From contig JAVJVN010000009.1 in assembly GCA_040221055.1 (NCBI GenBank), positions 96,257 through 160,256 of the forward strand: DNA of 64,000 nucleotides, given 5' to 3'. The notes beneath the pieces are model-generated. The model saw only the letters and a program-made list of their open reading frames with translations. It made no database searches and had not been told where the DNA came from. Source of the stretch: Rhodothermales bacterium (lineage in GTDB: Bacteria; Bacteroidota; Rhodothermia; Rhodothermales; UBA10348). Within the stretch, counting starts at the first letter, position 1, and each line of letters opens with the position of its first letter. Made by a program: the position numbers and the translations under genes. Shown here piece by piece: positions 25,396 through 39,519 of this stretch.

Positions 25396-26130
25396 TCAGT
25401 TCTTCGCCGCGTCCCTCAGGCGGAACCGGATGGGAATGGACATCCGCACACTCACGGCACGTCCCCGCTGCATTCCCGGCTGGAACGTGAGTTGCATGAC
25501 GGCCTTGACGGCCGCCTCATCCAGTACTTGACCACTGGAACGGGCAACTTCCGGCATGGCCGGTCGCCCTTCCGGCGTCACAACAATCTGGATGACAACC
25601 AGGCCTTCCAATCCAGCCTGCCGGGCGATTTCCGGGTACTCCAGATATTCGTAGACCTTCTGGGCACCCCCGATGATGGTCGGCATCTGCTCGACGACCA
25701 CGAAGATTTCGGTCTCGTCTTCCTGCTCGGGCTCAGGACTCGCCGGCATGGGTGGCGGTGGAGGAAGGTCTGAAAGAGGAGCATCCAGATCGAGCGTCGC
25801 ATCCAGATCCAATTCTTCTTCCTCGAACACGAAGTCATCGGGGACCTCTACCGGGACCGGCGGTCGGGGTGGTGGGGGCGCCTTCAGTTCCTGTGTGGTC
25901 TGGATGATTTCCTCCATCTGGACGGTTTCCTGATCCACAAGTACGAAGTCCAGCCCCTCACCGGCAGGCGTCAAGTTCATGCGTACCAGGACCACCATGA
26001 CGGATAGCGACAGGACAAGTCCGGCCATGACCATGGTCCGGTAAGCCGACTTGTGTTCCAGCCCTTCGTTCTTGCGGGGACGGCGCGGATTCTCGAGGAG
26101 GATCTCTCGAATGGTTTGGTTGGTTTTCAT
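25396..26130 (-). CDS. tonB: TonB-like energy transducer
   Basis: 244 residues. One membrane anchor near 30-50, a Pro-rich and acidic linker (KAPPPPRPPVPVEVP, then runs of Glu and Asp, then PPPPPMPASPEPEQ) and a C-terminal TonB domain from about 150, with the family phrases YPEIARQAGLEGLVVIQIVV and TFQPGMQRGRAVSVRMSIPIRFRL. TonB carries inner-membrane energy from ExbB-ExbD to outer-membrane receptors. An AGAGAGG ribosome site 5 bases upstream supports the ATG at 26130. ExbB/ExbD are not adjacent; the only pair in the window is at 38383-39519. Confidence 0.9.
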   Translation of the reverse strand: MKTNQTIREILLENPRRPRKNEGLEHKSAYRTMVMAGLVLSLSVMVVLVRMNLTPAGEGLDFVLVDQETVQMEEIIQTTQELKAPPPPRPPVPVEVPDDFVFEEEELDLDATLDLDAPLSDLPPPPPMPASPEPEQEDETEIFVVVEQMPTIIGGAQKVYEYLEYPEIARQAGLEGLVVIQIVVTPEGRPAMPEVARSSGQVLDEAAVKAVMQLTFQPGMQRGRAVSVRMSIPIRFRLRDAAKN

Positions 26131-26135
26131 GTCAA

Positions 26136-26142
26136 CCTCTCT
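26136..26142 (-). promoter_or_regulatory. Ribosome binding site of the tonB gene
   Basis: AGAGAGG on the minus strand, 5 bases before the ATG at 26130; it decides for this start over longer in-frame ones. Confidence 0.55.
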
Positions 26143-26177
26143 GGGATTTGAACGGGTGTGTTCCAAGCTCACACGCA

Positions 26178-26191
26178 GATTACCCGTAATC
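26178..26191. promoter_or_regulatory. Palindrome upstream of tonB, possible operator
   Basis: GATTAC CC GTAATC: two perfect 6-base arms around a 2-base centre, about 50 bases before the tonB start codon. Its place between the regulator gene and tonB fits an operator, but no protein can be named. Confidence 0.35.
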
Positions 26192-26202
26192 CCAAAGGCC
26201 CG

Positions 26203-26269
26203 GTATAGGGCCAGCACCTTGCACCCTATGCAGGAATACCGTGACCAGGTGTAGTCCCTGGCCCTACAC
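26203..26269. repeat. 12-base inverted repeat upstream of tonB
   Basis: GTATAGGGCCAG (26203-26214) and CTGGCCCTACAC (26258-26269) are inverted copies with 11 of 12 positions matching. A second, shorter pair lies inside: ATAGGG (26205-26210) and CCCTAT (26224-26229), and GTGTAG/CTACAC (26249-26254 and 26264-26269). The whole falls in the 163-base spacer between the response regulator stop and tonB. It may be a regulator binding array or an RNA stem. Confidence 0.45.
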
Positions 26270-26293
26270 GATCCGTTGCCGACAATGACGTGT

Positions 26294-26944
26294 TTATCCG
26301 GCCTTTTCCCCTTCAACCCACTGGACAGCATGCTGCATGAGTTCGGCCGCGCTGTCCAGATTCAACTTCGTCTTGATCCTTGCACGGTAAGACTCGACGG
26401 TCTTGACGGACAGATGGAGCCGCTCTGCGATATCCCGCGTACCCGCTCCCCGTCCGGTCAGCTCGAATACCTCCAATTCCCGATCGGAAAGCACATCCAA
26501 TGGAGACTCCTTCAAGGGTTCATGTCCCGATGCCATGCCCAGCAAAAGGCGCTCGTTGATCTCTTCCGAAACATAGATTCCACCATTCATTATCCGACGG
26601 ATGGCTTTGACCATTACGTCAACTGCAGAGAGCTTCATGACGTAACCCCGCGCGCCTGCCCGGATGGCCCGCTCGGCGTAGAGCATTTCGTCATGCCGGG
26701 AGACCACCAGGGACCGGATGCCCGGACGGATGGCCTGGATCTGTTTCACCAGTTCGAGTCCACTCATGCCGGGAAGAGAGATGTCCACGACCAACAGATC
26801 GGGGTTTTCCTTCTCGATGATCCCCAGTGCATCTTCGGCGCTGGATGCCTGGCCGACCACGGTCAAGTCGGACTCTGCATCGATGGACATGATGAGTCCT
26901 TTCCGCATGAGAGGATGGTCGTCGACAACTACAATTCGTGTCAT
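26294..26944 (-). CDS. NarL/FixJ-family response regulator
   Basis: 216 residues. The receiver domain has the acidic pocket VVDDH, phospho-acceptor Asp54 in LLVVDISLPG, the Ser of LVVSRHDE and Lys in GYVMK near 104, so it should be phosphorylated. The C-terminal LuxR-type helix-turn-helix reads LSDRELEVFELTGRGAGTRDIAERLHLSVKTVESYRARI. It follows the FixL-like kinase gene by 19 bases on the same strand and is surely its partner. The nearest downstream gene is tonB, and inverted repeats lie in that spacer, so tonB is a reasonable candidate target. Confidence 0.93.
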   Translation of the reverse strand: MTRIVVVDDHPLMRKGLIMSIDAESDLTVVGQASSAEDALGIIEKENPDLLVVDISLPGMSGLELVKQIQAIRPGIRSLVVSRHDEMLYAERAIRAGARGYVMKLSAVDVMVKAIRRIMNGGIYVSEEINERLLLGMASGHEPLKESPLDVLSDRELEVFELTGRGAGTRDIAERLHLSVKTVESYRARIKTKLNLDSAAELMQHAVQWVEGEKAG

Positions 26945-30310: not shown

Positions 30311-31162
30311 TTGGACACAACGCTGCCCATATGGCTCCTAATCATCGGTTTCGCCCTGCTCATCGCAGGACCGGCCATCGGTTGGTTTGCAGCCGTATGG
30401 CGCATGCAACGCCGGGAGGAAGAGCTTGACGAGCGCGAGCGTCGCATCCGTCTGAAAGTCCTTGAATTGCAACGCAGCACATTCCAGGACTCGACGACCC
30501 GGATCCACGGAGGGCGTGATCCCCAGGATCCGTCCGAAACCGGGGCCGCAGACGTGGAATCAGCGCTCATGACGTCTGTCCGCGAACAATTGGCCCAGGC
30601 AGAGTTCGAACGTGTGTCCCTCCAGGAGGAGCATGAAATCGAGCGCACCATCCTGCAGGAAGAACTGCGCGCAGCCCGGGATGAAATCGAGCGCCTCAGG
30701 AACGCCCCGGCCTCGTTCGTGGATGTCCCCGAAATGGATCTGTCTGACATCCGATTTGCCGAACCGGAGCCCGAACCGGAGCCCGAACCGGAGCCCGATG
30801 ACCCATTCGATTTCCATTGGACCGGACCCCTGCCTATTCCTTCACCGGCACATACCCCTGAACCTCCCAGACGTCCTGAACCTCCCAAACGCCCGGCCTT
30901 CCAACCAGTATCCGACCTCGTGGAGCCGTCACGGGATACGAGCGGTGCCCCCCCGCTCCAGCGTCTGCTTGGCATGAATGCCGAACAATATGCCCTGCTC
31001 GAAGAAATCGGATATGCTACGGTCGACCGGATCGCATCGCTGACCACGGTCTCCGTGGAGCGATTGTCCGGGATATTCGGCGTGCCGGAAAGCGAGATCC
31101 GGGAGCATTGGATACCGGATGCACAGAAAGCCGTATTCAGCGCGGAATTCAACCGGACTTGA
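30311..31162 (+). CDS. Membrane-anchored coiled-coil protein with EP repeats and a helical C-terminal domain
   Basis: 283 residues, no clear family. The N-terminus is one membrane helix (PIWLLIIGFALLIAGPAIGWF). Then comes a strong coiled coil (about 33-60 and 85-135, Glu/Arg rich), an acidic linker with [14 protein letters not shown], a Pro-rich spacer, and a compact C-terminal domain (LLGMNAEQYALLEEIGYATVDRIASL onwards) that looks like a helix-hairpin-helix pair. The start is a TTG at 30311, with no other in-frame start upstream. A structural or scaffold role at the inner membrane is an inference. Its 121-base upstream spacer shows no convincing promoter. Confidence 0.72.
   Translation: MDTTLPIWLLIIGFALLIAGPAIGWFAAVWRMQRREEELDERERRIRLKVLELQRSTFQDSTTRIHGGRDPQDPSETGAADVESALMTSVREQLAQAEFERVSLQEEHEIERTILQEELRAARDEIERLRNAPASFVDVPEMDLSDIRFAEPEPEPEPEPEPDDPFDFHWTGPLPIPSPAHTPEPPRRPEPPKRPAFQPVSDLVEPSRDTSGAPPLQRLLGMNAEQYALLEEIGYATVDRIASLTTVSVERLSGIFGVPESEIREHWIPDAQKAVFSAEFNRT
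30761..30796 (+). repeat. Three tandem 12-base repeats coding for Glu-Pro
   Basis: GAACCGGAGCCC occurs three times in a row (30761-30772, 30773-30784, 30785-30796) and codes for the EPEP linker of the coiled-coil protein. Copy number could vary between strains by slippage. Confidence 0.8.
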
Positions 31163-31177
31163 CGCGAGGCGATCGGC

Positions 31178-32104
31178 CTACGTCGCCAGCGTCACCGCCG
31201 GAATGGACGTCAGACTCCGGAATTCGTGGATACGATAGCTCAACTCATCCGCCGTCAGGGTTGCCAGTCGGTCCGGCCCGAACGCTTCTACACAGAATGA
31301 CGCTACTGCACTTCCATAGACCAGGGCGTTCTTCAACGCACTTTCGTCAATGGGTCCGCACGTCGAGAGATATCCCGAGAAACCGCCCATGAAGGCATCA
31401 CCGGCACCGGTCGGGTCCTGGATGTCCTCGAGTGGATAGGCGGGAACGGCAAAAACCGTATCGTCGACGAACAACAACGCGCCATGCTCCCCCTTCTTGA
31501 TCACGACAATGTGGGGGCCCATTTCCCGAATCAACCGGGCCGACCGGATGAGATTCGGCTCGCCAGACAATTCCCGCGCTTCCGAATCGTTGATCACCAG
31601 GCAATCAATACGTCGCAACAAGTCCTTCAGGGCCTCGGGCGTATGATCAATCCAGAAGTTCATGGTATCACAGATCACCAAATCTGCATCGGGCACCTGA
31701 TCCAGGACGCTGGCCTGGACCGTCGGGTCCAGATTGCCCAGGCACAGGATCCGACTGTCGAGATAGGCTGAAGGCACATTCGGACGGAAGGTCGACAGTA
31801 CATTCAGATCCGTATAGAGCGTATCCCGCGTGTTCAGGTCGTAGTGGTACCGTCCTCCCCACGCAAACGTCTTGCCATCTGCCTGGACTTCAAGCCCTTC
31901 CAGATCCACGCCGTTCGAACGCATGACCTGCATGTACTCGTCCGGAAAATCGTTCCCCACCACCGCCACAAGGCGAGGTGACGGACACATGAACCGGGCA
32001 GCCATCGTGATGTACATGGCGCTCCCGCCCAGGACACGGTCACGCTGACCAAAAGGAGTCTGGATCCGATCGAAAGCGACCGTACCTACTGCGAGAACAC
32101 TCAT
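31178..32104 (-). CDS. PfkB-family carbohydrate kinase
   Basis: 308 residues. PfkB signature 2 DPTGAGDAFMGG near 235-245 holds the catalytic Asp; the N-terminal GGSAMYITMAARF is the Gly-rich substrate loop; GNLDP and INDSEARELSG are family phrases. The enzyme phosphorylates a sugar or nucleoside using ATP. Related bacterial genes are annotated as ribokinase, adenosine kinase or sugar kinase; the substrate cannot be chosen. ATG at 32104 gives the usual opening MSVLAVGTVAFDRI; longer starts overlap the divergent TPR gene. The divergent spacer of 144 bases contains an inverted repeat CGCCTGC/GCAGGCG at 32145-32176. Confidence 0.88.
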   Translation of the reverse strand: MSVLAVGTVAFDRIQTPFGQRDRVLGGSAMYITMAARFMCPSPRLVAVVGNDFPDEYMQVMRSNGVDLEGLEVQADGKTFAWGGRYHYDLNTRDTLYTDLNVLSTFRPNVPSAYLDSRILCLGNLDPTVQASVLDQVPDADLVICDTMNFWIDHTPEALKDLLRRIDCLVINDSEARELSGEPNLIRSARLIREMGPHIVVIKKGEHGALLFVDDTVFAVPAYPLEDIQDPTGAGDAFMGGFSGYLSTCGPIDESALKNALVYGSAVASFCVEAFGPDRLATLTADELSYRIHEFRSLTSIPAVTLAT

Positions 32105-32144
32105 GTTTTTCCGGTTGTGGCAAAGAAAGCGCCCCAAGATACAA

Positions 32145-32176
32145 CGCCTGCCCGTCTTTTTTGGTTGTCGCAGGCG
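32145..32176. repeat. Inverted repeat between the PfkB and TPR genes
   Basis: CGCCTGC (32145-32151) and GCAGGCG (32170-32176) are perfect 7-base inverted arms around 18 bases containing six T. Stem or operator; not identified further. Confidence 0.35.
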
Positions 32177-32248
32177 ATCCCGGAAACGTAGCCGATCAGC
32201 GACCGTATTGGAGGCCAACATCCACGCAGCGCTCTCCTTCCACAACGC

Positions 32249-35200
32249 ATGAAGCTCCGACGGTTGATCCGACTGTTTTTTCTGTCCACGTTGACGTCTG
32301 CCTGGCTCCTGATGACGGCTCCCGTCCTGGCACAGCCGGTGAATACGGACGCGGAACGACTGTTCGAAACCGGCTTCGAACAGTTCCAGAACAACGTTTT
32401 CGCCAACGCCATTGACTCGTTCAATGAGCTGCGCCGGACCTATCCTGACCATCCCCGTTCGATGGATGCGATGTATTACACCGCCGAAGCCCAACTGGCG
32501 CTCGGTCGCGATGAAGAAGCCATCCGCATCCTGGATGCGTTCGATGCGTCCTGGCCCACCCACCCGTTCGCCTTCGGTACCCGGCTCGCCCTGGGCAAGT
32601 TCTATTTCGACCGGGGTGAGTGGTCCCGGGCCAGCAACGTCCTGGAAAGCGTTCTGGAACGGAGTCCCGGCCCCGAATCCTCGGCGCTCGCCCTCTACTG
32701 GATGGCTGAATCACGGATCCGGATGAATGAACCCGATGCGGCCATCCGGACGTTCCAGCGGATTGTGGATGAATTCCCCGGGACTCCGACCGCCCCGCGT
32801 GCCGCGTACGCCATTGCAGTCGCCCAGGTCAACATGGCCCGCTACGACCAGGCAGCCGGCAGCTTCGAGGACCTGGCATCACGCTGGCCGAATTCGGATT
32901 ATGCGCGCAATGTGGGGCTGGCCCTGGCCGAAGTCTACTACGAACTGGATGATTTCGGACGCACCGCCGACGAAATACGGCGCCAATTGCCCTATCTGGA
33001 CGGGGTCGCGCGCGACCGGGCGCGGTTCCTGCTGGCCGAGTCGCTCAATCAGCTTCGTCAGCACGACGATGCCATCGTGGAGTACCGGTATTTCACGGAA
33101 GGTGACCCCGGCAATCCATACTATCGTCGTGCACTGTACGGCCTGGCATGGAATTACCACCACCAGGAATCCTGGCAATGGGCGGCCGATACGTTCCGCT
33201 TGGTCCATGAATCGGGGGCGGATGACCTGTCGGCCGAGTCCATGTATTACGAAGCCGTCAACCGGCGCATGGCCCGGGAGGATGCAGAAGCCGTCCGGAT
33301 ATTCGAGAGCTATGTCACGAACTGGCCGGACCACAGCATGGTGGACCATGGATGGCATGAACTCGGCGTGTTGCAATACCAGCGTCGGAACTGGGCAGAG
33401 GCCAGGGATGCATTGTCCGTCTTCGTCAGCGGATTCCCGGAGTCCGACGTCCGTGGTGACGCCCTCATGCACCTTGGAAACGCCCACATCGCCCTTGGGG
33501 AATTCGACCCCGCGCTGCAAGCGTTCGATCGGGCCATCGCGCTGGACGCGGCGCCCGTATCCCTGCGTGAAGACATCCGGTTCCAGAAAGCATGGTTGCT
33601 TTACAGGAATCGGAATTACCGGGAGGCTTCCGAACAATTCCTGGCACTGTTCGAATCCAATTCCGTCTCCGTGCAAGCCGCCGAGGCCCTGTTCTGGGCC
33701 GCCGAAAGCTATTTCCAGGTGGACAATTTCCGCCGGGCCGAGACGCTGTTCGAGCGGTATCTGAACAGCTACCCCGGTGGCAGGCACGTGGACGCGGCCC
33801 ACTATGCATTGGGCTGGACGTATTTCCGACAAGGTCGTTATACCGAAGCCATCCCGGAATTCCAGCGCTTCCTGAACGCCTATCAGGAAACTTCCGAGAC
33901 GGTTCCGTACCGCTCCGATGCCCGATTGCGCCTCGCGGACAGCTACTTTGCCCTGAAGCGCTACGCAGAAGCCGTACGGGTTTACGGCCAGATGGCTGCC
34001 GATGGCGACGATTATGCCCTCTACCAGATCGGTCAGGCCTACTCCAACGCCGGTGACGCCTTCGAAGCCATTTCCACGTTCCGGCAACTCCTGACCGACT
34101 ACCCGGATTCGGAGTGGCAGGAGGAATCCCGGTATCAACTCGGATATCTCTATTTTCTGGGCCAGGAATACGAATTGGCCATCTCGACGTGGGAAGAACT
34201 CATTGCCGATTTTCCGCGTGATCCGCTCGCCGCCAAGGCGCAGTATGGCATCGGCGATGCCTGGTTCAATGCCGGAGAGACGGAAGCTGCCGTACGTGCC
34301 TATCAGCAGGTATTGACCGGTTATCCGGGCAGCCCGTTCACGGCCGATGCCGCCGCAGGCATCCAGTTTGCCCTCATGGCCGACGGGCAGGACCGAAGGG
34401 CCGATTCCATCGTGGACTCGCTCGCAACAGCGCTGGCTGGCACTCCGGCAGCCGATCAGCTCCGCTTCCGCCAGGCCGAAGCGAAATACCAGAGTGGTCG
34501 CTCCGGAGCTGCTGCTACTGATTTTGCAGCCTTCGTGTCCTCGGACGCCGAGCCCGTTCTGAAAGCCGAAGCATGGTATTACCTGGGAATGATTGCACGG
34601 GATGATGCGCGGCCTGCAGAGGCCATGGATGCGTTCCGTCAGGTCCTGCAAGCCCCGGCCACCGCCAACCGCCGGGCGCAGGCCGCGCGCGAACTCGGTC
34701 ACCTCGAACTGGATGCCGGTAATGCCGAAGCGGCACTCACATCGTTCCAGGCTGTAGAGCGCGCCGCAGAGGGCAATGCCCGGCTGGTGGCGGAAGCGCG
34801 GTTCGGGCAAAGTCTGGCCCTCTCTCAATTGGGGCGCGATGCGGAGGCGCGTCGCCTGCTTGAGGATGTGGTGGAGCAAACCGGCTCCTCCCCCGATGCG
34901 CACCCGGCTCTCCTGGGTCTTGCCCGTCTGTATCTGGACGAAGGAAATACCAATGCAGCCGTACCCCTGCTGAACCAGCTGGCTGCCGAAGCCCAGGATG
35001 AAACCGGTGCCGAAGCCCTGTATCTGCTCGGACAGGAGTATTTGCTCAGAAACAATCCCCGCCAAGCGATAGAAACCCTGGGACGGATGGCCGCGCTCTT
35101 TCCCGGCTATCCGGAGTGGATGGCGAAGTCGCTCATGGCCCAGGGACAAGCCTTCGAATCGCTGGGCGAAGCCGGCCAGGCCCTCCAACTCTACAATGAG

Positions 35201-35272
35201 TTGGTTTCCACCTATCCCGACGCCACCGAGGCCGCCGCCGCACGCGCCCGGATAGCCGCACTGGAGAACTGA
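32249..35272 (+). CDS. Large periplasmic TPR protein (about 1,000 residues)
   Basis: 1,007 residues. Signal peptide at 1-29 (ends VLAQ). The whole remainder is tetratricopeptide repeats, roughly 25 units of about 34 residues with the A-x-x-x-Y/F pattern; a few read as DAAIRTFQRIVDEFPGTPTA and EAVRAYQQVLTGYPGSPFTAD. It resembles the BamD/YbgF (CpoB) style of outer-membrane or Tol-associated scaffold but is much longer. The 3' end has 2 bases before the OM barrel gene, then SPOR, ExbB and ExbD genes follow, so it is the first gene of a five-gene envelope operon. A scaffold linking the barrel to the energised complex is inference. Confidence 0.87.
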   Translation: MKLRRLIRLFFLSTLTSAWLLMTAPVLAQPVNTDAERLFETGFEQFQNNVFANAIDSFNELRRTYPDHPRSMDAMYYTAEAQLALGRDEEAIRILDAFDASWPTHPFAFGTRLALGKFYFDRGEWSRASNVLESVLERSPGPESSALALYWMAESRIRMNEPDAAIRTFQRIVDEFPGTPTAPRAAYAIAVAQVNMARYDQAAGSFEDLASRWPNSDYARNVGLALAEVYYELDDFGRTADEIRRQLPYLDGVARDRARFLLAESLNQLRQHDDAIVEYRYFTEGDPGNPYYRRALYGLAWNYHHQESWQWAADTFRLVHESGADDLSAESMYYEAVNRRMAREDAEAVRIFESYVTNWPDHSMVDHGWHELGVLQYQRRNWAEARDALSVFVSGFPESDVRGDALMHLGNAHIALGEFDPALQAFDRAIALDAAPVSLREDIRFQKAWLLYRNRNYREASEQFLALFESNSVSVQAAEALFWAAESYFQVDNFRRAETLFERYLNSYPGGRHVDAAHYALGWTYFRQGRYTEAIPEFQRFLNAYQETSETVPYRSDARLRLADSYFALKRYAEAVRVYGQMAADGDDYALYQIGQAYSNAGDAFEAISTFRQLLTDYPDSEWQEESRYQLGYLYFLGQEYELAISTWEELIADFPRDPLAAKAQYGIGDAWFNAGETEAAVRAYQQVLTGYPGSPFTADAAAGIQFALMADGQDRRADSIVDSLATALAGTPAADQLRFRQAEAKYQSGRSGAAATDFAAFVSSDAEPVLKAEAWYYLGMIARDDARPAEAMDAFRQVLQAPATANRRAQAARELGHLELDAGNAEAALTSFQAVERAAEGNARLVAEARFGQSLALSQLGRDAEARRLLEDVVEQTGSSPDAHPALLGLARLYLDEGNTNAAVPLLNQLAAEAQDETGAEALYLLGQEYLLRNNPRQAIETLGRMAALFPGYPEWMAKSLMAQGQAFESLGEAGQALQLYNELVSTYPDATEAAAARARIAALEN

Positions 35273-35274
35273 CC

Positions 35275-37065
35275 ATGAACAATCCGCTCCGAACACTCTC
35301 GCATCCGGCACAAGCCATCCGGGCATCCGGTGGGTTGGCCCGTGTCCTGCCGCTGCTCCTTTTTGCATGGGTCACGGTCTCGTCCTCGAGCGCCCAGGAC
35401 GTGGTGTTGCCGGACCTGGCGCCCCGCGAGGTCGAGATAACGGGAGACCTGACCATCTCGTTTCCTTCGCTTCGTCGACAGCCGCTCATCGGCTTCAATC
35501 CTCCGCCCCGGGTCCCGGAAATCCCGGTCTCCCGGATTCCGTTCTCGGAGGCCTACAAACAGCCCAGTGCGGATCTCCCACCCAGCCCGCTCCAGCCGCC
35601 GTCTCCCCCGGCCGTCTCGTCCCTTGCCAGTCGGATGCCGGCGCGGGGTTATGTGACGGCGACCGCCGGTCGATATCTGGACCGCACGGTCGAAGGGGTC
35701 CTCACACTCAGCCTCACCGAGCGATCATCAACCACTCTGGACATCAACTATTTCGGAACGAACGGCCAGGACGTCGGTCCCGGAAACGCCTCGTCGGCCC
35801 GGGATCTGTTCAATGGCGACCTGACCTGGAATCGAATGGCTCCCGGAGGCTGGTTCACGGCCCAGGCCGGCCTGACCAGGAATGCGTGGTCCTTGTTCGG
35901 GGCAACGCCGGACGCGTTTTCCGGCGCATCGCCCAATCCGGATCGGACTTTGACGTCCTGGTTCACCGGTCTGGCCCATGAGACCCGGGCCGGCTCCCGC
36001 ATCGGCAGCCACACCCGACTTGAAGTGGAGCGCACCCTGGTGGAGACCGATATCTTCAATCCGGATGTCCGGGTCGATCCGTCCACGGCACGCCAAACCC
36101 AGCGTCTTTCCCTCGACTCCTATCTGGAAATCCCGGCTGGACCCGTCGGTGTACGCTTTGACGTGGCCGGCGGAATGCATGGATTCGATACGGGCAATGC
36201 TCTTGACGTTTCCACGCTGAAGTATGGCGAAGCCGCATTGGTCTTTCTGACGCCTCGCGACCGGATTTTGACCCTCGATATCGGAGGTTCAGTCATGGGG
36301 TACGACTCCGAAGCGCAGACAGCTTCCGGTTCGGAACGCTACCTGGCCTGGTTTGCCCCCGTCCTCCGTGCGCGATACTGGTTGGGAGGGGGTCTGTTTG
36401 TCACCGGAGGAACCCGACCAGGGCTTGAAGCGACCTCATTGAAAGCCGCATACGATGTGCATCCGTTCCTGATGGACGAGCCGCTCGTCCTTCCCCGTAT
36501 GAATTCGGTGGATGCGTACCTGGGTGTTGAATTGACGTCGGTTTCGTTCAACGGCGTCCTGTCAGCCGGTTGGACCGATTCGCCGTCCGCATCCTATGCA
36601 CGCGTGCCGACGACATCGCTCAAAGGATATACGAGCGGGTATTTCGCGTATGATCATGCCCGGACCCGAACGACCTGGGTCGAGGGCGATCTGACGTACA
36701 TCGCATCCACCGCACTCGAAGCCGGCGTCCGCCTTCGCGTACAGGATGCCCAGCTTGAGGAAACGGAACAGGCGCTGCCATTCGTGTCTCCCGTCTCTTC
36801 CCGGATCTGGGTGACTTCGTCCTTCCTGGATGCCCGCCTCCAACTGCTTTCAGCCATCCGGTTCGAATCAGCCCGACCCGTACAACCGGGCGGTGACAAC
36901 GACGGGGATTCCCTGCTGGATGCCGAGTTGAACGGTCAGTGGTGGATCCGTCCGGAGCTGGGCATTACGGTCGGTATCCGCCACCTTTTGTCCGAGCCGA
37001 CATTCTGGCCCGGCTATCCGCTTGAATCCACTGCCGTACGAGCCGGCCTGCGTTGGCGCTGGTAG
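35275..37065 (+). CDS. Outer-membrane beta-barrel protein of unknown function
   Basis: 596 residues. A long N-terminal signal (cleaved near SSSAQ) is followed by a proline-rich segment (PPPRVPEIPVSRIPF and PPSPLQPPSPPAV) and then about 450 residues of alternating hydrophobic strands with aromatic girdles, ending in RWRW, a typical C-terminal Trp for BamA-assisted folding. It starts 2 bases after the TPR gene. The N-terminal region contains no clear TonB plug domain. Its position before the SPOR, ExbB and ExbD genes suggests it is an energised or structural partner of that complex. Confidence 0.75.
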   Translation: MNNPLRTLSHPAQAIRASGGLARVLPLLLFAWVTVSSSSAQDVVLPDLAPREVEITGDLTISFPSLRRQPLIGFNPPPRVPEIPVSRIPFSEAYKQPSADLPPSPLQPPSPPAVSSLASRMPARGYVTATAGRYLDRTVEGVLTLSLTERSSTTLDINYFGTNGQDVGPGNASSARDLFNGDLTWNRMAPGGWFTAQAGLTRNAWSLFGATPDAFSGASPNPDRTLTSWFTGLAHETRAGSRIGSHTRLEVERTLVETDIFNPDVRVDPSTARQTQRLSLDSYLEIPAGPVGVRFDVAGGMHGFDTGNALDVSTLKYGEAALVFLTPRDRILTLDIGGSVMGYDSEAQTASGSERYLAWFAPVLRARYWLGGGLFVTGGTRPGLEATSLKAAYDVHPFLMDEPLVLPRMNSVDAYLGVELTSVSFNGVLSAGWTDSPSASYARVPTTSLKGYTSGYFAYDHARTRTTWVEGDLTYIASTALEAGVRLRVQDAQLEETEQALPFVSPVSSRIWVTSSFLDARLQLLSAIRFESARPVQPGGDNDGDSLLDAELNGQWWIRPELGITVGIRHLLSEPTFWPGYPLESTAVRAGLRWRW

Positions 37066-37089
37066 CCTTCCATCCGCTATCTTCCATCC

Positions 37090-38361
37090 ATGTCGCTACA
37101 GGACCCCGCCACCGTATCTGCCATTGCTGCCCGACTCATGCGCGGGCACGACGTCCGCATGGCCCGTATCGGGATCCTGCGCTCGTCCTGGACCCCTGCA
37201 CGGCAGGAAGACGCGCAGATATGGCCTCCGTTCGTGGACATCGTACTCGACACCAAGCCCAACCTGGCTGAATCCGAGCCGCCGGTTCCGGTGGATTTCC
37301 TGTCCCGGCAAATCCGGGAAAAACTGTCTGACGACGCACGTGTTACGGTCGACGGCCTCGGAACGTTCGAGCAGGAAGCGGACGGTCTCGTTTTTCTTGC
37401 AGATGAACGCCTCCGGCACTCGGTGAATGCAGAGTGGGGGCATCTGGAACCCCACGAATTGCCTGCGCCACCGGTATTCGCGACTCCCCCAGAAACCGAT
37501 TCCGGCCCGATCGCGGAGCCCGAGCCGATTGCTGGGCCTGAGCCTGAGCCCGAGCCGATCGCAGAGCCTGAGCCCGAGCCCGAGCCGATCGCAGAGCCCG
37601 AGCCGATCGCAGGGCCTGAGCCCGAGCCCGAGCCGATCGCAGGGCCTGAGCCTGAGCCCGAGCCGATCGCAGAGCCGAACCCTCCTCACCCGTCCCCATC
37701 CGGTCCCGTCCCGGAATGGCAGGAATTGGCAACCACCGGAGGCACGTCCAAGTTGTCGGACCGCACGGCTCAAAAGAAACCGAAGGAGCGCAGGAGCGCG
37801 GCGGCTTCCCGTCAGGACCGGAAGCGTGAATCGTCACGGATGCCGGTCTGGCTCATGATTGCGGGCGCATTGATCCCTGTCCTTGTCGTGGTCCTCGGAG
37901 TGTTGCTCTGGCCCGACGCCTCCGATCCTGTATCCGATGCGTCGGAGAATATGCCGGCAGACACACTGCAGACGGCAGCCAATACCGGCACGGAGGATGA
38001 CGCCGATGCCGGTACGGACGACGGTATGGCTGCCCCCTCCGATACAACCGTTGTTTCCCCCGTGGAACCGCCGCCGGCCTCCCCAACCGACACTCCCGCC
38101 TTGACCTATGCGCTCTCTCGGGGACTGCCCGGTTATACCCTCATCCTCGCATCCGGCATCAGCGAGGGTTCCGCGGTAGCGCTGGCCCGTACATTCTCTG
38201 ATCTCGGCCTTCCGTATGGAGTATTGACGTATCCATCCGACGGTGGCACGCTCAATAGACTCGCCCTGGGCCAATGGCCTACTGTGGCAGAAGCCGACAG
38301 CATGCGGACCATACTTGCGGATCGACTGCCGGAAGGCACGTGGGTCAAGCGACTTGACTGA
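37090..38361 (+). CDS. HU-CCDC81-like plus SPOR-domain membrane protein
   Basis: 423 residues. The N-terminal 110 residues resemble the bacterial HU-CCDC81 domain ([16 protein letters not shown] region and [18 protein letters not shown]). A Pro-Glu-Ala repeat ([10 protein letters not shown] units, about residues 140-200) and a Lys/Arg stretch lead to one membrane helix (about 251-274), an Asp/Thr-rich spacer and a C-terminal SPOR domain (about 335-423). SPOR domains bind denuded peptidoglycan glycans at division sites. This architecture is typical of Bacteroidota. It precedes the ExbB/ExbD pair by 21 bases, so it may bring that complex to the septum or cell wall. Confidence 0.85.
37507..37674 (+). 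repeat. In-frame Glu-Pro-rich tandem repeat
   Basis: Repeated GAGCCCGAGCCGATCGCAG-type units code for [16 protein letters not shown] blocks, with about 30-base periodicity over roughly 170 bases. Near-identity of copies suggests slippage-prone length variation in the extracytoplasmic or linker segment of the SPOR protein. Confidence 0.75.
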
Positions 38362-38382
38362 TTTTCCAACCCTATATCAACT

Positions 38383-39105
38383 ATGAACCTTCAAGCCATG
38401 CAGGACACAAGTGCTGCGCTGGACACGCTCCAGAGTCTGCCCGTGGAAACCACCTCCCAACTGGACATCCTCATGCAGGCCGGGTGGATCATGGTCCCCA
38501 TCTTCCTGCTTTCCATTCTCACGGTCTATTTGCTTGTCGAGCGTCTTCGGACCTTGAAACGCGCCGAGGCCAACCGAGACCAGATCATGGATCGCGTGCG
38601 CCAGTTCGTGGAACAGGGCAACATCCAGGGGGCCAAGGCATTCTGTGAGGCCCAGAACAAACCGCTGACCCGCATCATAAAGCATGGTTTGGAGCGCTTG
38701 GGTCGCCCGATTTCCGAAATCCAGGATGCCGTCAACGGAGCCGGCAAGAGCGAAGCCTTCGAGCTGGAGAAGCGGATGGACATGCTGGCTTCGATTGCCG
38801 GCATCGGTCCCATGCTCGGCTTCCTGGGCACCGTGACGGGCATGATCGAGGCCTTCCAGCAAATCCAGAGTCTCCAGGGCAACGTGAATCCGTCCGTCCT
38901 GGCGGGAGGCATCTGGGAAGCGTTGGTATCCACGGCCGGCGGTTTGGTGGTGGGCATTCTGGCCTTCTTCTTCTACAACTTCCTGCTTGGCAAGATCAAT
39001 CGCCTCGTGCACGACATGGAATCGTCTGCTACCGAGTTCATCGACCTGTTGCAGGCTCCGGCACCCGCGCCGGCCCGTCCGTCCAGTTCCCAGGAACGAT
39101 TCTAG
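38383..39105 (+). CDS. MotA/TolQ/ExbB proton channel family protein
   Basis: 240 residues with three membrane helices (about 32-54, 140-165 and 178-205), and the family phrase EKRMDMLASIAGIGPMLGFLGTVTGMIEAFQ. TolQ and ExbB channels use the proton gradient to energise partner proteins. It follows the SPOR gene and precedes the ExbD/TolR gene by 9 bases. Sequence alone does not decide between TolQ and ExbB; absence of a Pal/TolB pair and presence of a TonB gene elsewhere are ambiguous. The C-terminus is an Ala-Pro tail. Confidence 0.9.
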   Translation: MNLQAMQDTSAALDTLQSLPVETTSQLDILMQAGWIMVPIFLLSILTVYLLVERLRTLKRAEANRDQIMDRVRQFVEQGNIQGAKAFCEAQNKPLTRIIKHGLERLGRPISEIQDAVNGAGKSEAFELEKRMDMLASIAGIGPMLGFLGTVTGMIEAFQQIQSLQGNVNPSVLAGGIWEALVSTAGGLVVGILAFFFYNFLLGKINRLVHDMESSATEFIDLLQAPAPAPARPSSSQERF

Positions 39106-39114
39106 GAGAATACC

Positions 39115-39519
39115 ATGTCTGTTGATTTCAATACGGAAAGAAAGCCGCTGACGGCCTATTCCCTCGCCGGCCTGGCGGACATCGTACTGTTACTCCTGGT
39201 CTTCTTCCTGCTCACGTCCAGCTTCATTCCGCAATTCGGTATCCAGGTGGACCTGCCCCGGACCGAAACCGCGGCTCCGAACCAGGGACAGTACATAACG
39301 GTGTCCATCTCCGCGGATGGCACCTTCTATGTGGAGCAGCAACGCGTACCCCGTGAGCGTCTGCTGGAGGTCATCCGCACGGAGTTGAAGGGGCGCACGA
39401 CGTTGGTGCTCCGCGCAGATGAGAACAGTACCGTCAAGAACTTCGCCGCGGTCGGTGGCATTGCCCGGGCCCTGAACCTCCGGTTCCTGATGGCCACCGA
39501 GCGGGGACAGATCAACTAG
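39115..39519 (+). CDS. ExbD/TolR-family biopolymer transporter
   Basis: 134 residues. One N-terminal membrane helix (DIVLLLLVFFLLTSSF) with the conserved Asp that carries the proton, and a periplasmic domain containing the ExbD-like ADENSTVKNF segment. Partner of the ExbB/TolQ protein; together they form the motor of a TonB- or Tol-type system. It is the last gene of the five-gene envelope operon and converges with comM, 6 bases apart. Confidence 0.9.
   Translation: MSVDFNTERKPLTAYSLAGLADIVLLLLVFFLLTSSFIPQFGIQVDLPRTETAAPNQGQYITVSISADGTFYVEQQRVPRERLLEVIRTELKGRTTLVLRADENSTVKNFAAVGGIARALNLRFLMATERGQIN

Follow-up and report, generated by a model that had tools for sequence, protein, structure and literature searches.

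Introduction

In a survey published in 2025, Williams-Jones et al. reported that Bacteroidetes have no identifiable tol-pal loci and proposed PorE as the outer-membrane tether (PMC12204202). How Bacteroidota constrict the outer membrane without Tol-Pal is a gap for which that survey could only suggest PorE. Here, we describe a gene set that was encountered in a 64,000-nucleotide stretch of DNA from a Rhodothermales bacterium (the whole stretch is called the window below) and that consists of an operon of five genes and a sixth, unlinked gene.

Two of the closest described systems come from the same survey. PorE has CpoB-like repeats and is a proposed replacement of Tol-Pal in the same phylum, but it is a single lipoprotein that combines TPR, propeller and OmpA-like domains, a make-up that none of the five operon-encoded proteins has. 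The von Willebrand-type (vWA) force transducers are encoded beside TPR and tolQR-like genes (PMC12204202), and, like the present locus, they combine a TPR gene with a neighbouring motor of the tolQ/tolR kind and a transducer anchored in the membrane. However, the C-terminal domain is vWA there and TonB here, and no barrel or SPOR gene was reported with them. The main text of the survey mentions neither SPOR nor folC.

The two remaining systems are Tol-Pal and Ton. Tol-Pal shares with the locus a proton motor, a membrane-anchored transducer with a C-terminal domain of the TonB/TolA type, a CpoB-like TPR protein, a peptidoglycan-binding domain and a conserved operon; unlike Tol-Pal, the locus has a transmembrane barrel as its outer-membrane part and a SPOR protein as its peptidoglycan binder, and by its position in a tree its motor is no TolQ. 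With the Ton system the locus has in common the type of motor, a TonB C-terminal domain, a modelled 22-strand barrel of the transporter type and a TonB-box-like N-terminus, whereas the fixed operon with a giant TPR protein and an HU/SPOR protein, the lack of a plug in the barrel and the presence of a second, Ton-type motor in the genome set it apart. The likeness to a Tol-Pal or TonB machine that an earlier note on this DNA had drawn is supported. The system nevertheless does not belong to Tol-Pal, since TolB is absent and the operon has no Pal, and the missing plug sets it apart from ordinary TonB-dependent transporter systems; it most likely works like the Tol-Pal and Ton systems. The same note had regarded the locus as a candidate for an undescribed system, and a literature search outside bioRxiv and most subscription journals returned no description of the gene set. 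In the portions of text searched, two 2025 papers on the Bacteroidota BAM mention neither ExbB nor TPR proteins.

Results

The locus comprises five open reading frames on the forward strand (+) in the order TPR, barrel, SPOR, ExbB and ExbD, with gaps of 2, 24, 21 and 9 bases, as had been read from the sequence before. The features are as follows.

32105-32248, intergenic: space separating the operon from a divergent gene of the pfkB family that starts at 32104; probable promoter region, placed by coordinates only
32249-35272, + strand: TPR gene; 1007 aa, signal peptide without lipobox, predicted soluble periplasmic scaffold
35275-37065, + strand: barrel gene; 596 aa, outer-membrane protein, residues 125-595 forming the modelled 22-strand barrel
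35401-35589, + strand: part of the barrel gene for the conserved tail; residues 43-105, including REVEITG, a TonB-box-like strand
37090-38361, + strand: SPOR gene; 423 aa, alpha/beta region 1-112, transmembrane helix 253-273, SPOR domain 348-421
38383-39105, + strand: ExbB gene; 240 aa, pore threonines T150 and T184
39115-39519, + strand: ExbD gene; 134 aa, membrane aspartate D22

This layout supports the earlier view of a single operon that links outer membrane, periplasm, peptidoglycan and inner membrane. Upstream of the operon, at 30311-31162 (+), lies a gene for a protein with a transmembrane segment, a coiled coil and an acidic Pro-Glu stretch; the protein matched no family above the cut-off, but it is conserved, and many genomes of the same family have a match to it in front of the operon.

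The TPR protein was matched by Pfam TPR models (TPR_6, E = 1e-82), and the best named model was YbgF/CpoB, which matched in ten stretches. In nearly every locus examined, its gene and that of the barrel are neighbours. No Pfam or NCBIfam family matched the barrel protein. The AF2 model, computed from 24 sequences (pLDDT 81, pTM 0.75), has 22 strands in residues 125-595, while residues 1-124 are unfolded and the tail within them is disordered. No plug domain is folded before the strands in this model, no plug family was detected, and all of the 50 PDB matches listed in a structure search with the barrel model are TonB-dependent transporters. As modelled, the protein is a TonB-dependent-transporter-type barrel of 22 strands that lacks the plug.

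Conservation is distributed unevenly along this protein. Among the aligned copies, column identity is 0.72 in the tail (residues 43-105) versus 0.40 in the barrel, no 20-residue window of which exceeds 0.49, and 21 of the 35 near-invariant columns (≥90%) fall in the tail. A short hydrophobic strand is kept at the mature N-terminus across the phylum (for example REVEITG, LPDFVITG or EEIEVVRPY), which we take to resemble known TonB boxes. We read this strand as the putative grip site of the transducer.

The two motor proteins were identified by Pfam as MotA_ExbB (E = 1.6e-31) and ExbD (E = 1.5e-19). The threonines T150 and T184 of ExbB are present in 30 of 30 aligned copies and the aspartate D22 of ExbD in 28 of 28. 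In the ExbB tree, the operon copies of the window's order group together (98/91), the copies of family f15 and the C11-type motor form one group (100/100), and TolQ of the phylum stands far off on a long branch (100/100); across the whole sample, the operon copies are not a single clade. An assignment of the ExbB of the window to TolQ was rejected, as the TolQ proteins of family f28 make up a separate, distant clade. On contig C11 of the same genome (L033:5379-9277, G000:C11), a second motor, encoded by exbB and, after it, two exbD-like genes, lies behind a CtpA-like protease; it is probably the general Ton motor of this genome.

The third gene had been described as encoding a cell-wall-binding SPOR protein with an HU-CCDC81-like domain. 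Both domains were found in orthologues of the same layout, with E values down to 8e-22 for HU-CCDC81_bac_1, 6e-19 for HU-CCDC81_bac_2 and 2e-9 for SPOR, whereas in the window's own copy the SPOR domain scored just under the Pfam cut-off (20.9 versus 21.0 bits) and HU-CCDC81 was not detected by Pfam at E ≤ 0.1. The AF2 model gives the layout of an N-terminal alpha/beta region, a transmembrane helix and SPOR, and a structure search with this model returned no significant match (best E = 8e-3). Within the gene, overlapping 30-base repeats at 37489-37674 (+) encode a linker rich in E, P, I and A.

In sister orders and families, in several more distant families and in Hymenobacter, Ekhidna and Sphingobacterium, exbD is followed by a sixth gene. 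Its product has an N-terminal transmembrane helix and a proline-rich or acidic linker, and a TonB C-terminal domain in most copies tested. A profile built from nine such proteins gave one full-length match in the window's own genome (G000:C12:107950-108708, E = 6e-65), which is unlinked to the operon and matches TonB_C (2e-6) and tonB_Cterm (7e-9), as well as tolA_full (8e-10) under the cut-off of that model. Matches were obtained in 40 of the 41 genomes of the window's order, a tally that includes partial matches and, for G038, a weak 50-residue match only, and in 28 of 28 good genomes. The system therefore has a transducer, which in the order of the window is encoded outside the operon. The motif S-x3-H of TonB and TolA is kept in all 11 transducer copies inspected, and it is not kept in the transducers of Pedobacter. 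The statement that the locus lacks TolA was therefore wrong for the system as a whole: a TonB/TolA-like transducer is the sixth gene of the operon in relatives and is unlinked here. A TonB gene about 6 kb upstream of the operon, 25396-26331 (-), was rejected as the operon's transducer, as its product did not match the transducer profile; the genome has nine TonB_C matches, of which this protein is one. Directly before the transducer gene (L135:6778-9709, G000:C12) lie the genes for a PorV-like outer-membrane protein and a glycosyltransferase.

Conservation of the operon was surveyed in 41 genomes of the order, namely the window's own and 40 relatives, and 38 of the 41 gave a match to the barrel protein. 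In fetched regions, BLAST recovered all five genes in the same order and on the same strand in 19 relatives, so that the arrangement goes beyond coincidence, and the order TPR-barrel-SPOR-ExbB-ExbD holds across the order of the window. The barrel and TPR genes are thus conserved beside exbBD, the opposite of the outcome by which the earlier note would have been refuted. In four more relatives, the SPOR gene was too diverged for BLAST, and three of these have an open reading frame whose ends match. Most of the remaining loci are interrupted by contig ends; a real exception is G033 (L052), where the 2.6 kb that follow SPOR contain no exbB. The flanks are usually conserved in the order as well, with the divergent pfkB-family gene upstream and yifB downstream.

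Rhodothermota and Bacteroidota had been proposed earlier as the groups in which to survey the gene order. The system is not confined to Rhodothermota but runs through most of the sampled phylum. A broad, synteny-checked profile (A4) found the barrel, mostly at full length, in most of the families sampled; its tally of 388 of 393 genomes does not equal presence in all of them. The weak partial matches of A4 in f15, f22, f28, f41 and f52 were rejected as the barrel, as they lie in larger proteins of ∼600-950 aa with the look of ordinary TonB-dependent transporters. An absence of the barrel from many families, as read from weak matches of the order-level profile A1, was likewise rejected, as A4 showed this to be an effect of profile sensitivity.

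TPR-barrel pairs occur in most of the regions fetched from the phylum. The six-gene order TPR-barrel-SPOR-ExbB-ExbD-transducer was read in named records of Hymenobacter, Ekhidna lutea, Sphingobacterium and Pedobacter arcticus; Daejeonella and other Pedobacter have a gene at the same place, behind exbD, whose product agrees with the transducer in size and layout but stays below the threshold of the transducer profile. A Mur-ligase-type (folC-like) gene comes next after the cluster. Most Bacteroidales and Flavobacteriales records have exbB-exbD-transducer without TPR-barrel alongside. In f18-f21 the TPR gene is not a neighbour of the cluster, and in several families the same is true of exbBD. 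Four sister-order loci (L116, L117, L118 and L120), in which the TPR gene is not adjacent, have ftsK slightly upstream; ftsK is accompanied there by a gene for an LPG-synthase-type membrane protein (family checked in L116), both upstream of barrel-SPOR-ExbB-ExbD-transducer. Six loci (L121, L124, L125, L130, L132 and L133) read TPR-barrel-SPOR-transducer with no exbBD in between, and the motor must therefore come from elsewhere. Two Bacteroidales MAGs (L238 and L292) have two exbB-exbD pairs, head to head.

Operon-type ExbB is missing from all nine genomes of f15, a family of the window's order; the best ExbB there groups with the C11 motor of the window's genome, and profile searches found no full-length barrel in this family. 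As operon-type ExbB and full-length barrel are both absent, the operon set appears to have been lost jointly in f15; the transducer search covered G038 alone of the nine genomes, with the weak match given above.

Family f28 is without the barrel, and the complete regions read there carry tolQ-tolR-tolA-tolB-pal-cpoB; among the families sampled from the phylum, it is the only one in which canonical Tol-Pal turned up. With a protein query, TolB was recovered from each of the 30 f28 genomes tested (E ≤ 1e-163), whereas the Pfam model TolB_N alone missed many f28 genomes. Full-length TolB was found in none of 41 genomes outside f28 (the window's genome and 40 others of the phylum), in agreement with the earlier claim that TolB is absent; a TolB_N match in the window's genome was rejected as TolB, being a partial match inside a 1055-aa frame. 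The claimed lack of Pal in the operon also held, as Pfam found an OmpA domain in none of the five proteins, among which there is no GldL/GldM motor or propeller domain either; five OmpA-domain matches lie elsewhere in the genome. Since tol-pal is documented in Chlorobiota (PMC12204202), f28 probably represents the green sulfur bacteria, an assignment that was made in part on this basis. The exclusion between barrel and Tol-Pal amounts to one evolutionary event, in one family, and is suggestive rather than proof. Families f15, f22, f41 and f52 seem to lack both systems, so that neither would be indispensable in the phylum.

Discussion

We give an even chance to the reading that the five genes and the unlinked transducer form a dedicated proton-powered machine of the Ton/Tol type that spans the envelope and most likely does the job of Tol-Pal. 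The exclusion with Tol-Pal, the SPOR domain, the CpoB-like TPR repeats and the presence of ftsK nearby in relatives all point to this role. In a more specific form, which we put forward tentatively and at somewhat under an even chance, the six proteins would be the Bacteroidota counterpart of Tol-Pal, in which a plugless barrel with a TonB box, instead of TolB-Pal, is pulled inward at the division site, with the HU/SPOR protein as its link to septal peptidoglycan and perhaps also to the nucleoid.

The data show which genes make up the set, how they are ordered and distributed, which domains they encode, the modelled fold, the conserved motor residues and the joint absence in one family. How the parts touch, where at the septum they sit and what the machine does are inferred, as follows. 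ExbB and ExbD would form the proton-driven motor of the inner membrane, and the transducer, anchored beside it by the S-x3-H helix, would reach across the periplasm and grip, with its TonB-like C-terminal domain, the TonB-box-like tail of the plugless outer-membrane barrel. The giant TPR protein would be the periplasmic partner of the barrel. The SPOR domain would anchor the machine on denuded septal peptidoglycan, while the HU-like domain, located in the cytoplasm, may tie it to the nucleoid. Such a machine would pull the outer membrane in and keep it attached during division.

The main rival is a proton-driven surface exporter, for example of surface lipoproteins, in which the transducer opens or pulls the plugless barrel, the substrate is passed or flipped, and the TPR protein serves as periplasmic receptor. 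A 22-strand barrel without a plug could act as a channel, the distribution through most of the phylum would suit such a function, and the surface-lipoprotein exporter of Bacteroidota is undescribed (PMC12632263). We nevertheless regard this as unlikely, as it leaves unexplained why an HU/SPOR protein is encoded in the operon, why the set and Tol-Pal exclude each other and why ftsK lies beside the cluster.

The poor conservation of the barrel and the good conservation of its tail are the opposite of what would be expected of a substrate site, which speaks against a specialised Ton system, that is, a barrel that imports a nutrient or metal, is served by a motor and transducer of its own and has its plug replaced, for instance by the tail. 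The TonB-domain transducer, the ExbBD motor and the transporter-type barrel with a TonB-box-like tail speak in its favour. Against it, the plug is missing from the barrel model, SPOR and giant TPR proteins are no parts of Ton systems, and for Ton the genome carries a different motor with two ExbD genes; we consider this explanation quite improbable. A variant of type IX secretion or gliding with a PorW/SprE-like TPR protein would fit the Bacteroidota distribution, but is very improbable given that the PorW/SprE match of the TPR protein is far below the cut-off (130 versus 250 bits) and scores below YbgF/CpoB, that the motor is of the ExbB/ExbD and not the GldLM type, and that no component of type IX secretion was identified among the five proteins.

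Should the Tol-Pal-like role prove true, a proton-driven set that is widely conserved and includes a transporter-type barrel without a plug would close the Tol-Pal gap of the Bacteroidota. The gene set provides defined genes for depletion in laboratory strains. It would also suggest that a transporter fold is usable as a mechanical handle rather than as an importer.
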